64,000 nucleotides of DNA from Olsenella sp. An293 (GTDB taxonomy: Bacteria > Actinomycetota > Coriobacteriia > Coriobacteriales > Atopobiaceae), in contig NZ_NFIT01000004.1 of NCBI RefSeq assembly GCF_002159495.1, forward strand, positions 1 through 64,000. Reading direction: 5' to 3'. Positions 13,910 through 51,938 of the stretch are shown here, one piece after another. How positions within the stretch are numbered: the first letter of the stretch is position 1; each line of letters starts with the position of its first letter. The notes beneath the pieces were generated by a model. The model searched no databases. It was not told the origin of the DNA and saw nothing but the letters and a program-made list of their open reading frames with translations. The position numbers were made by a program, and so were the translations under genes.

Positions 13910-14833
13910 ATGACCAGGCTCGCCGTTTTTGACGTGGGCGGAACCGCCATCAAGTACTGCGCGATGGAGGGCACCGACATCCAGCTCCAAGGGGAGGTCC
14001 CCACGCCGGACCCCGAGTCCGAGGACCAGGGCCCCTTCCTCGAGGCCCTCGAGGGCGTGCTTGCGCAGTTGGGGCCCGTTGAGGGTATCGCGCTCTCCAT
14101 GCCCGGCGTGATCGACGTCGACCGCAAGTACCTCCACACCGGCGGCGCGCTCAAGTACAACTTCAACGCGGACGTCACCGCGTGGGAGAAGCGCTTTGGC
14201 CTGCCCGTCGAGGTGGAAAACGACGCCCGCTGCTCCACGATGGCCGAGCTCGCCGTGGGCAACCTGCAGGGCGTCCGGTCCGGCGTGGTGCTCACCTTTG
14301 GGACGGGCATCGGCGGCGGCACGGTGATCAACGGAGAGCTCTACAAGGGCGCGCACCTCTACTCCGGCGAGGCCTCGATGATGTACTCCAAGCTCCCGCG
14401 CAAAGACAGCGAGCTGCGCGACGACGGCGCCTGGTCGACGGAGTGCTCCACGTTTGGCATGTGTCGGCGCCTGGCCGAGGCCAAGGGCATCGAGCGCTGC
14501 GACGGGCGCCAGCTCTTCACCTGGCTCGAGGAGGGCGACGAGGTCACCGCGCGCGTGTTTAGCGACGTGTGCGACGGCATCGCGATGCAGATTCACAACA
14601 TCCAGTGCTGGCTCGATCCGGAGCGCATCTGCCTGGGCGGCGGCATCAGCAAAAACCCGCTCTTCATCGAGGGCGTGCGGGATGCTCATCGCCGCTTCAA
14701 CGCGGAGCTGCTCTACGACTTCCCCGAGGTTGAGATCGTGACCTGCCGCTTCTTCAACGACGCCAACCTCATCGGCGCGTACCAGCACTTCCTCCGCATG
14801 CGCGAGAAGCGGTCCGCGGCAGAAAACCTCTAG
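13910..14833 (+). CDS. ROK-family sugar kinase
   Basis: 307-residue ATP-dependent sugar kinase of the ROK group. It has the phosphate-1 motif AVFDVGGTAIKY at the N-terminus, GVIDVD around residue 65, and LTFGTGIGGGTVINGEL near residue 130. The CxCGxxGC zinc cluster of many ROK glucokinases is missing, as in the beta-glucoside kinase and related branch. The ATG at 13910 follows GGAGGAG by four bases. Substrate is unknown; no sugar operon is directly attached. Confidence 0.87.
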   Translation: MTRLAVFDVGGTAIKYCAMEGTDIQLQGEVPTPDPESEDQGPFLEALEGVLAQLGPVEGIALSMPGVIDVDRKYLHTGGALKYNFNADVTAWEKRFGLPVEVENDARCSTMAELAVGNLQGVRSGVVLTFGTGIGGGTVINGELYKGAHLYSGEASMMYSKLPRKDSELRDDGAWSTECSTFGMCRRLAEAKGIERCDGRQLFTWLEEGDEVTARVFSDVCDGIAMQIHNIQCWLDPERICLGGGISKNPLFIEGVRDAHRRFNAELLYDFPEVEIVTCRFFNDANLIGAYQHFLRMREKRSAAENL

Positions 14834-14945
14834 GTTGTTGGCATTTTTGCCCCAAAGTGCATCGCCTCTCGTCAGAGCCCCTCGATCGGGCCGACGCGCC
14901 AAGCCACAAAGGCCAGTTGGCCGCCCAGCCAAGAAGCCCTTCACG

Positions 14946-14985
14946 AGTGCGCCCTCCGGCGGAGGGCGCACTTCGGGCCTTTTTC
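14946..14985 (+). terminator. Hairpin terminator after the ROK kinase
   Basis: AGTGCGCCCTCC (14946-14957) pairs perfectly with GGAGGGCGCACT (14961-14972), and a run of five T follows at about 14980. It probably ends the ROK transcript. Confidence 0.65.
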
Positions 14986-15023
14986 GCCAACGCAGCCACG
15001 CCGCACCGCCCCACCCCCGACCA

Positions 15024-15085
15024 GTTGACAATTACGTCAGGTTATATTGTCAACTTTGACAGTTGCGTCAGGTTATATTGTCAAC
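15024..15085. repeat. Two tandem copies of a 31-bp A+T-rich repeat
   Basis: Copies at 15024-15054 and 15055-15085 share the pattern TTGACA(A/G)TT(A/G)CGTCAGG followed by TTATATTGTCAAC. Each unit begins and ends with complementary GTTGACA / TGTCAAC boxes (first base T in the second copy) and contains a TGAC-N6-GTCA dyad. They lie just past the stop of the leftward phosphatase at 15093. The composition is clearly unlike the G+C-rich surroundings. Confidence 0.85.
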
Positions 15086-15092
15086 TTGCCGG

Positions 15093-15887
15093 CTACAGGC
15101 CCTCGAGGATCTCGCGCATCGTGGCCTGAACGGCGTGCTCGGTGTTGCGGCTGATGACGCGCTGGCCGATCTGGCGCACGGCGTAGCGGGCGTTCTCCAT
15201 CACGTAGGGGTGCCCCACGTAGCGCAGCATCGCGTAGTCGTTCATGGAGTCGCCAAAGGCCACGACCTCGCTGCGGTCGATGCCCCAGTAACGCAGCACC
15301 TGCTCGAGCCCCGTTGCCTTGTTCACGTGGCGCGGCACCACGTCGATCCAGCGCGAGCCGCTCGGCAGGAAGGTGAACCACTCGGAGAGCTCGCGCTCGA
15401 GAACGTAGGCCATGTCCATGAGCTGCTCGGGCAGCTCACAGCACACGGCGGCCTTGATGATGCTCACGTCCGGCGAGGGCGGGTCGAAGATGCGCTCGGC
15501 GTTGGGGAGGTCCTTGTCAAGCTCGCGCAGGTAGGAGCTCTGGTCGTTGAGCAGATAGGTGTGCGTGGCGTCATAGAGCGCAAGATGGATGCAGTCAAAG
15601 AGCTGCGTGGTCTCAAACAGGCGCATCACCGCGATGGTCGAGAAGACCTCGCGGTCGAGTAGGCGACCGTCGGCGTAGACCTGCGTGCCGAGCGATGCCA
15701 CATAGTCCATCTCGTCCGCAACCGGCCCAAAGAACCAGCGCAGCGTGTCATAGCGACGCCCTGAGCTGGCCACAAAGCGCACGCCCTTCTCGTGCAGGGC
15801 GTGGATGAGCTCGAAGGTCTCCTCGGGAACCTGGGCGTCGCCGTCCAGCAGCGTGCCGTCCATGTCTGACGCAATGAGCTTGATCAT
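15093..15887 (-). CDS. Cof-type HAD phosphatase
   Basis: 264-residue phosphatase of the Cof/IIB HAD subfamily. The DMDGTLL motif (Asp8/Asp10) opens the protein, SSGR is motif II, and the GDSMNDYAML motif IV lies near residue 220, with a large alpha/beta cap between. GGAGG precedes the ATG. Such enzymes dephosphorylate sugar phosphates, nucleotides or flavin precursors with broad specificity. It follows a paralogue (16068-16910) and is flanked on both sides by the 31-bp repeats. Confidence 0.87.
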   Translation of the reverse strand: MIKLIASDMDGTLLDGDAQVPEETFELIHALHEKGVRFVASSGRRYDTLRWFFGPVADEMDYVASLGTQVYADGRLLDREVFSTIAVMRLFETTQLFDCIHLALYDATHTYLLNDQSSYLRELDKDLPNAERIFDPPSPDVSIIKAAVCCELPEQLMDMAYVLERELSEWFTFLPSGSRWIDVVPRHVNKATGLEQVLRYWGIDRSEVVAFGDSMNDYAMLRYVGHPYVMENARYAVRQIGQRVISRNTEHAVQATMREILEGL

Positions 15888-15928
15888 GGCTGAACCTCCT
15901 CGTCTGGACTTGGCGGTCGTAACGGACC

Positions 15929-16033
15929 GCGGGTTGACAGTTGCGTCAGGTTATGCGGGTTGACAGTTGCGTCAGGTTATATTGTCAACTCGTTCCGAGT
16001 TGACAATATAACCTGACGCAACTGTCAACCCGC
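15929..16033. repeat. 31-bp repeat cluster with a perfect 38-bp-arm palindrome
   Basis: The first 26 bases of the unit appear at 15929-15954. An immediately following full copy forms the left arm (15955-15992) of a perfect inverted repeat whose right arm is 15996-16033, with only TTC as loop. The sequence lies between two leftward Cof-type phosphatase genes. If transcribed it would fold into a 38-bp stem; if DNA is the active form it offers several dyads for a regulator. Confidence 0.9.
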
Positions 16034-16067
16034 AACCTGGCACAGCTGTCACGACCAACAGCCCCTC

Positions 16068-16910
16068 TCACTGCAGGAACGCGGGCATCTCGCCGGCTCG
16101 GGTGGCGCGGGCGATCTCGAGCAGCGCGTCTGCCACGCCCTCGTCAGCGACGGAGCCCACGCGATAGTTGGCGGTGGCCAGGACCTCGTCGGTGGCGTTG
16201 GCCACGGCCACGGAGTGGCGGACCTTGCGCAGGATCTCGAGGTCGTTCTCGGCATCGCCAAATGCGACGACCTCATCGGCCGTGATGTCCAGCGCGTCGA
16301 GAAGAACGTCGAGCCCGGCGGCCTTGGAGACACCCTGCGGCATGATGTCAAACCAGCCCGAGATGGGCGACGCGATCCGCATGTCCGGCGCTGCCTCGGC
16401 CACGATCTGCCGGCAGCGCTCCATGTGCTCGGGGTCCTCCGGGCAGGCGATGGTCGCCGCGATGTAGTCCTCGTCGGGGATCTGGTCGACGGCGATGCCG
16501 GTGAAGCGCGTGCGGCGGGCGTAATAGGCGAGCTCATCGTCGGTGGTGCCCACGCCATACGCGGGATAGAGCAGGTTGGTCTGCTCGGGGTAGCACACGA
16601 GGAACATGCCCGGCTCGGGGCGCAGCGCCGCATCGATCCGCTCGAGGGCGTCGCGCGGGATGAGCGTCATCTGGACGTAGGCGCCGTCAAGGCGGATGCG
16701 CTTGCCGTTGGAGAGGATGCCCGTCTTGAAGCAGGACTCGTCCATGTCAAAGAAGCGCAGCAGCTCAACGGTGTCGCGACCGGTGGCGGGGCCAAAGCGC
16801 ACGCCCGCGTCCATGAGCTCGTGGATGGCGGAGATGGTGCGCGGGCTCACGTGCTTCTCGCCCAGCGGAATGAGCGTGTTGTCCATGTCCGAAAGAACGA
16901 GCTTGATCAC
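16068..16910 (-). CDS. Cof-type HAD phosphatase
   Basis: 280-residue HAD hydrolase with DMDNTLIP at the N-terminus, TGRD as motif II and a FGDAENDLEIL motif IV near residue 220. It keeps the large C2 cap of the Cof group. Its start overlaps the end of the membrane-protein gene by four bases, so translation is coupled. It belongs to the run pepT - membrane protein - phosphatase - phosphatase. Confidence 0.87.
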   Translation of the reverse strand: MIKLVLSDMDNTLIPLGEKHVSPRTISAIHELMDAGVRFGPATGRDTVELLRFFDMDESCFKTGILSNGKRIRLDGAYVQMTLIPRDALERIDAALRPEPGMFLVCYPEQTNLLYPAYGVGTTDDELAYYARRTRFTGIAVDQIPDEDYIAATIACPEDPEHMERCRQIVAEAAPDMRIASPISGWFDIMPQGVSKAAGLDVLLDALDITADEVVAFGDAENDLEILRKVRHSVAVANATDEVLATANYRVGSVADEGVADALLEIARATRAGEMPAFLQ

Positions 16911-42626: not shown

Positions 42627-42670
42627 AGCCGCGCGGGGCAAAAAATCCTCCGGGGATCAGTCCCATGGAC

Positions 42671-42900
42671 TGCAAAATCGGCCTTCAGTCCATATTCGGC
42701 CGACCCGCAGAACAAAACCGTGCTTCGATCCATGGAAAAATGACCCCTCGGGCCGATTCGAGATGCTCCTCGCGATAGCTCAACTGGGCATATGCAATCG
42801 AGCAAGCGCGAGGACCGCGCCTGAGGGCAAAATACTCATGGATCGAAGCGCGGTTTTGTTTTCCCGCCCGGCCGAATATGGATCGAAGGCCGATTTTGCA
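42671..42900. repeat. MITE-like long inverted repeat
   Basis: The left arm (42671-42749) and right arm (42823-42900) are inverted copies about 78 bases long with roughly 85 percent identity. Their outer ends are TGCAAAATCGGCC / GGCCGATTTTGCA. Repeated GATCCAT and CGGCC blocks occur inside the arms, and the 73-base centre has no open frame of note. No clear target-site duplication flanks it. It sits between two convergent genes (lipoprotein and LacI regulator). Confidence 0.75.
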
Positions 42901-42945
42901 GCGCGGCATCCCCCGCACAGGTCAGATTGCGCGCAAAGCGCCGCG

Positions 42946-51887: not shown

Positions 51888-51909
51888 GTCTGTTCCTTTC
51901 GGCACGACA

Positions 51910-51938
51910 TGACAATGTCGTCAGACGTTTTTGTCAAC
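51910..51938 (-). promoter_or_regulatory. araA upstream site matching the 31-bp repeat family
   Basis: TGACAAT-N2-CGTCAG, six or seven bases, then TTGTCAAC aligns without gaps to the repeat units at 15024-15085 (22 of 29 positions by eye). On the minus strand its end supplies a TTGACA -35 box, with TGTCAT 17 bases on as a weak -10. A second CGTTTGTCAACC copy of the box lies at about 51944-51956. Confidence 0.55.

Follow-up and report, generated by a model that had tools for sequence, protein, structure and literature searches.

Repeat units of 29 nt on both sides of a Cof-type phosphatase gene in Olsenella sp. An293 are, judging by their sequence and genomic distribution, very probably non-autonomous REP/REPIN-like elements of a chromosomal RAYT, a HUH/Y1 transposase with a C-terminal helix-turn-helix (HTH). 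Their mobility is read from this distribution, and the RAYT would be the agent of their movement. The original prediction, made from the letters of the window (the whole 64,000-nt stretch of DNA that was analysed), had offered either a small mobile repeat or the binding sites of a regulator. A mobile repeat is strongly supported by the roughly 80 copies between genes, by a RAYT gene that has the unit at both ends, by repeat families particular to each species and by the dependence of the units on the transposase locus.

Repeat units beside the phosphatase genes and across the genome

Between positions 15025 and 16028 of the window we recovered four complete units of 29 nt together with a partial one, placed by the phosphatase gene as the original prediction had them. 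Two full units form a tandem pair on the + strand at 15025..15053 (TTGACAATTACGTCAGGTTATATTGTCAA) and 15056..15084 (TTGACAGTTGCGTCAGGTTATATTGTCAA), and the first of these alone folds into an 8-bp stem with a 13-nt loop. The Cof-type HAD-IIB phosphatase gene (15093..15887, - strand; TIGR00099 over cut-off) lies between the two repeat sites and is a neighbour rather than a part of the element; a second HAD-IIB (Cof-like) phosphatase gene, identified by profile search, lies upstream in the same direction (16068..16910, - strand). The partial unit (15934..15954, + strand; TTGACAGTTGCGTCAGGTTAT) is accounted for by an exact 26-bp tandem duplication (15929-15980), of which it is the left copy. Next to it, a left unit (15960..15988, + strand) and an identical right unit (16000..16028, - strand) form the arms of an inverted pair contained in a REPIN-like element, a perfect palindrome of 81 nt (15954..16034, unstranded) with arms of 39 nt and a loop of 3 nt (TTC). 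A decayed extra copy (ATGACAATGTCGTCAGACGTTTTTGTCAA) was found at 51909..51937 (+ strand).

The 17-nt core of the unit was matched five times in the window versus 0.14 expected from shuffles, none of which reached five. Both the complementary unit ends (TTGACAAT/ATTGTCAA) and the TGAC-N6-GTCA dyad described previously were present. The folding energy of the 81-nt palindrome as DNA was -50.4 kcal/mol compared to -8.6 for shuffles, and as RNA it was -73.3 kcal/mol, that of a very stable hairpin. No sigma-70-like site or promoter-like hexamers were found at the repeats, no U-run was found 3' of the hairpin, and an Rfam search of 14800-16300 produced no match. A second repeat family was observed in the window at 42670-42901 as a 232-bp element whose inverted arms of 65 nt (88% complementary) enclose a variable centre of ~100 nt, with imperfect copies (about 68-85% identity) at roughly 30 other places in the genome. 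Near the window start, 24-95 and 577-648 form an inverted repeat of 72 nt (90% complementary), 481 nt apart.

A lack of further copies in the genome had been named in the original prediction as grounds for abandoning it. We found 68 units in the genome when allowing 3 mismatches and 80 by a looser pattern, with 0 for the reversed-pattern control. The description of the repeats as framing a Cof gene is correct but not specific, as about 80 units are spread genome-wide. The units are arranged as inverted pairs, tandems and singles and are nearly all intergenic. In a survey of 40 stretches of the genome plus the window region, which covered 83 units, there were 21 inverted pairs with spacers of 2-26 nt, 13 tandem neighbours and 19 singles. 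Gene context was taken from a simple codon-usage gene caller, which is rough and was wrong at the RAYT locus. On this basis, 47 of 48 clusters were intergenic, with 28 in tandem, 14 in convergent and 5 in divergent gaps; +/- inverted pairs were confined to tandem or convergent gaps, with 0 in divergent gaps. Positions 1-6, 11-17 and 25-29 of the unit (TTGACA, CGTCAGG and GTCAA) were nearly invariant, and positions 7, 9 and 10 were variable.

At four loci of this genome (L055, L058, L061 and L065), some of the pairs are extended by outer half-units (TTGACANNNNCGTCAGG-like). The variable letters of these half-units match those of the inner unit, and the palindrome arms thereby reach ~50-57 nt. 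The exact unit was absent from 2.9 million viral contigs, and viral spread was thus rejected. A 4 kb segment bearing a tandem unit pair (L045, G000:C1:53600-57700) was 99% identical to a segment of another genome that is otherwise without units (L100, G023:C21), indicating either a recent transfer or assembly contamination.

The RAYT and its cognate repeats

One gene of this genome lies between inverted unit copies, which are at 110742 (+) and 111695 (-); it is a chromosomal gene (G000:C34:110767-111597) that by its sequence and modelled fold encodes a RAYT-type HUH tyrosine (Y1) transposase with a C-terminal HTH. The unit at 110742 overlaps the RAYT stop codon. In profile searches the 276-aa protein matched Y1_Tnp (9e-13) and, below the cut-off of the model, the REP-associated tyrosine transposase of NCBIfam (6e-19), and its C-terminus gave weak, sub-threshold HTH matches in Pfam. 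An ortholog in Thermophilibacter mediterraneus is 67% identical and occupies the same place beside the GGGtGRT gene in the same arrangement, and in both species the 3' unit overlaps the stop codon. The AlphaFold model of this ortholog has a mean pLDDT of 90.5, with the C-terminal helices modelled at pLDDT above 90, and its best PDB match was 4er8 (E. coli RAYT on REP hairpin), followed by IS200/IS605 transposases. A PDB sequence search with the RAYT returned nothing meaningful, and the link to 4er8 is by fold comparison only. Among 84 relatives, the HUH motif and the HTH glycine were each conserved in 84/84 and Tyr138 in 83/84, and the C-terminal motif was also conserved.

A flanking inverted repeat pair clearly above shuffles was detected in 105 of 111 RAYT relatives with usable flanks, nearly all of which belong to Coriobacteriia. 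Repeat likeness was 0.81 within a locus versus 0.23 between loci. For 84 non-redundant proteins, protein identity was correlated with repeat similarity (Mantel r 0.479, 0/2000 permutations), with a repeat similarity of 0.93 above 80% protein identity and about 0.22 below 50%. At the GGGtGRT locus, the repeat of the RAYT is TTGACA..CGTCAGGTTAT..TGTCAA in this genome, GTGACAATTAGGACAGGTT..ATTGTCAC in G018, ATGACAAAGGTGACAGGGT..TGTCAT in G012, G013 and G028, and TTGACAGTTTGCTCAGGTCAAACTGTCAA in G015, with other types in other genomes. Between species the outer stem varies by compensation while CAGG is constant. The strict GGGGWSAS motif is present in 24/84 relatives and GGGAC[AG] in 61/84; GGGGWSAS is absent from the unit of this genome (NCGTCAGG). 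At the sequence level, these comparisons show that repeat and RAYT diverge together across species.

The number of units also tracks the presence of a RAYT at the GGGtGRT locus. Units were counted with the general pattern TGACA-N6-WCAGG-N6-TGTCA, for which the reversed control gave 0 in every genome; the count for G011 is a lower bound because its own repeat type falls outside this pattern. The 12 genomes of the genus with a RAYT at this locus, among which we counted G022 with a broken copy, G030 with a remnant and G015 with a copy on a short contig, contained 88, 28, 10, 104, 113, 128, 177, 74, 133, 107, 59 and 68 units. Of 19 genomes without it, 17 contained 0-3 units, with 39 in G006 and 26 in G016; in some fragmented genomes the locus is incomplete, and RAYT absence there rests on the protein search. 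RAYT presence and unit number were associated (Fisher 6e-7, uncorrected for phylogeny), and the association is partly clade-structured. In a tree of neighbouring genes, G006 and G016 nest within the clade of G000 (this genome) and G018, which fits two recent RAYT losses, and the tree separates other neighbours with and without the RAYT, such as G017 (104 units) and G004 (2). Among the G018 units listed, nearly all were of its own RAYT's type, and those listed for G015 were mostly of its own RAYT's type together with a second family. Two repeat types were observed in G009, whose C29 RAYT is not flanked by GCTCAGG-type units; no RAYT flanked by the GCTCAGG type was found in that genome, and G015 has one.

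Turnover of the elements and alternative explanations

In relatives, differing repeats occupy the gap between the two phosphatase genes. This genome's type is found there in G000, the type of G018 in G018 and G006, the GTGACAGTTTGCCCGGGTC type in G009 and G015, and a truncated single unit in G011 and G022, while G016 and seven species with the genes 5-8 bp apart have no repeat. Across relatives, the gap contains differing species-specific repeat types or no repeat. This variation points to a place where elements have landed repeatedly or have been converted in situ, rather than to a dedicated regulatory target; different types in the same gap could mean either. The element parts genes that are nearly contiguous in relatives, with a possible predicted effect on the mRNA. 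The 11-nt loop of the window pair (15960-16028), when reverse-complemented, exactly equals that of a G006 pair (L091, 1999-2067) on the opposite side of the same gene, and at L080 two pairs 850 bp apart have loops that are likewise reverse complementary. Such loops in nearby pairs suggest short-range hops or flips.

The arms of the 21 inverted pairs differed by a mean of 0.14 letters versus 2.69 between pairs (0/10000 permutations), and were identical in 18 of 21 despite 17 different arm sequences. Pairs at orthologous sites in G006 depart from those of G000 in both arms together: three substitutions are present in both arms at L068/L095, an 18-nt mirrored insertion accompanies an inverted loop at L058/L094, and the loop is inverted at L071/L093. 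L075/L089 is a centre-deleted pair remnant, and a clean empty site in G006 for the L075 pair was rejected for this reason. This concerted change of the arms is an unusual feature that hairpin-templated correction or template switching explains most simply; the RAYT might also rewrite them. Bertels and Rainey 2011 (PMC3116915) had already described compensatory changes in REPIN spacers. We consider it a speculative and rather unlikely extension that the RAYT, or a hairpin process fed by it, might rewrite elements in place, so that arms change jointly, the population converts when RAYT specificity shifts, and orthologous gaps keep an element whose sequence follows the local RAYT. If this were true, it would represent transposase-driven concerted evolution of a dispersed repeat and not turnover by new insertions.

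In the mechanism we propose, a single-stranded unit or pair, such as on the lagging strand, would fold into a hairpin with the conserved CAGG core. The RAYT would bind this hairpin, cut beside it with its tyrosine, and join the cut unit to another single-stranded intergenic site. Placed pairs would outlast the RAYT and decay slowly, for example through loss of the centre, with their arms kept identical by the correction or template switching suggested above. Pairs that are transcribed would form very stable RNA hairpins which might affect mRNA ends, here between two phosphatase genes, as a by-product.

The chief competing idea is that selection acts on the units through an RNA function, in transcription attenuation or 3'-end protection, with only a historical link to the RAYT. 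Their location in tandem and convergent gaps, the RNA hairpin of -73.3 kcal/mol and the retention of some repeat type in certain gaps of several species would all fit such a role. We regard it as improbable, however, since most species lacking the RAYT hold 0-3 units though the flanking genes remain, no U-run follows the hairpin, and the repeat type is species-wide rather than gene-specific. It is less likely still that a DNA-binding regulator of scattered genes uses the units as its operators, for instance one of MerR type recognizing the TGAC-N6-GTCA dyad, the other possibility raised in the original prediction. While a conserved palindromic core, inverted and tandem arrangements and A+T-rich intergenic sites are what operators might look like, the intergenic clusters (47/48) lie mostly behind genes that are unrelated to one another, inverted pairs never occur between divergent genes or their promoters, and neither promoter-like hexamers nor a sigma-70-like site accompany the repeats. 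In addition, close relatives carry differently sequenced units in the same gap or lack them, and the closest unit-bearing gene is that of a transposase.

The terminal inverted repeat appearance and high copy number of the units could also be those of a MITE that belongs to an ordinary DDE insertion sequence and has no relation to the RAYT. This origin is the least credible of those considered, as the full-length gene between unit copies encodes a Y1 (HUH) protein at the same place in both this genome and T. mediterraneus, and no sign of target-site duplication was seen at the few orthologous sites compared. Target duplications had been expected of a mobile repeat in the original prediction; to our knowledge, they are not expected of single-strand transposition of the IS200/IS605 type.

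Relation to known repeat-transposase systems

Interpreted in this way, the elements and their RAYT operate like REPIN/RAYT systems, and the protein architecture and flanking repeats are closest to those of the TIRtron/TIRYT of Di Nocera et al. 2013 (PMC3733652). The features by which a REPIN is recognized were found here: two inverted units with a short spacer, a window pair that folds as one hairpin, many dispersed intergenic copies (~80 units) and a linked RAYT gene that has this repeat on both sides. As in REPIN/RAYT (PMC3116915), inverted doublets form long hairpins, are intergenic, are tied to one chromosomal RAYT and show compensatory changes across the hairpin. In contrast to that system, there is no GTAG tag, the RAYT has an extra HTH, a lone unit by itself forms an 8-bp stem whose loop contains the conserved core, and the pair arms are identical in 18/21. 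The catalytic fold is shared with the E. coli REP/TnpAREP system (4ER8; PMC8266576), the best structural match of the RAYT model, but E. coli REPs need a 5' GTAG (PMC8266576) which the units here lack. The GT[AG]G foot of canonical REPs is absent from the units and occurs within 8 nt in just 6/83. CGTC-tagged REPs (PMC3733652) resemble the units in the letters CGTC and in being small palindromes that form dimers; however, CGTC is an unpaired end tag in those repeats and no transposase has been linked to them, whereas here it is internal (positions 11-14 of 29) rather than an unpaired terminal tag and a RAYT is linked. Identity with canonical GTAG REPs or CGTC REPs was rejected upon testing for their defining tags.

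With TIRYT/TIRtron (PMC3733652), the system shares a Y1 HUH transposase with a C-terminal HTH, a single gene with inverted repeats near its ends that sometimes overlap the stop codon, the dispersal of repeats also as singles and dimers, and, in relatives, a GGGGWSAS-like core (GGGGACAG). It differs in that the core in this genome is NCGTCAGG and not GGGGWSAS, a motif common to the majority of described members but not all (PMC3733652), and in that unit populations in this genus reach about 177. The RAYT probably belongs to TnpAY1 subclass 2.1 of Quentin et al. 2018 (PMC6006769), with which those authors tentatively equated TIRYT/TIRtron. Near genes of this subclass, those authors found no REP-like sequences (PMC6006769), whereas nearly all HTH-bearing relatives examined here have flanking palindromic repeats. 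The main texts of PMC3733652 and PMC6006769 do not mention Actinobacteria or Coriobacteriia under those names.

How REP-type repeats spread and persist is unsettled, and RAYT transposition has been inferred but hardly observed. This genus presents a natural experiment, with the same RAYT locus in 12 species whose cognate repeats have diverged and many species without a RAYT. Two sister lineages appear to have lost the RAYT and keep fewer copies, one of which was seen with its centre deleted. HTH-bearing RAYTs, described as being without nearby REP-like sequences, are accompanied by cognate palindromic repeats across Coriobacteriia. In annotation, the repeats beside the phosphatase genes would best be labelled mobile-repeat DNA and not operators. 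The host is a gut actinobacterium, and related species likewise pair a transposase with a matching repeat of their own.
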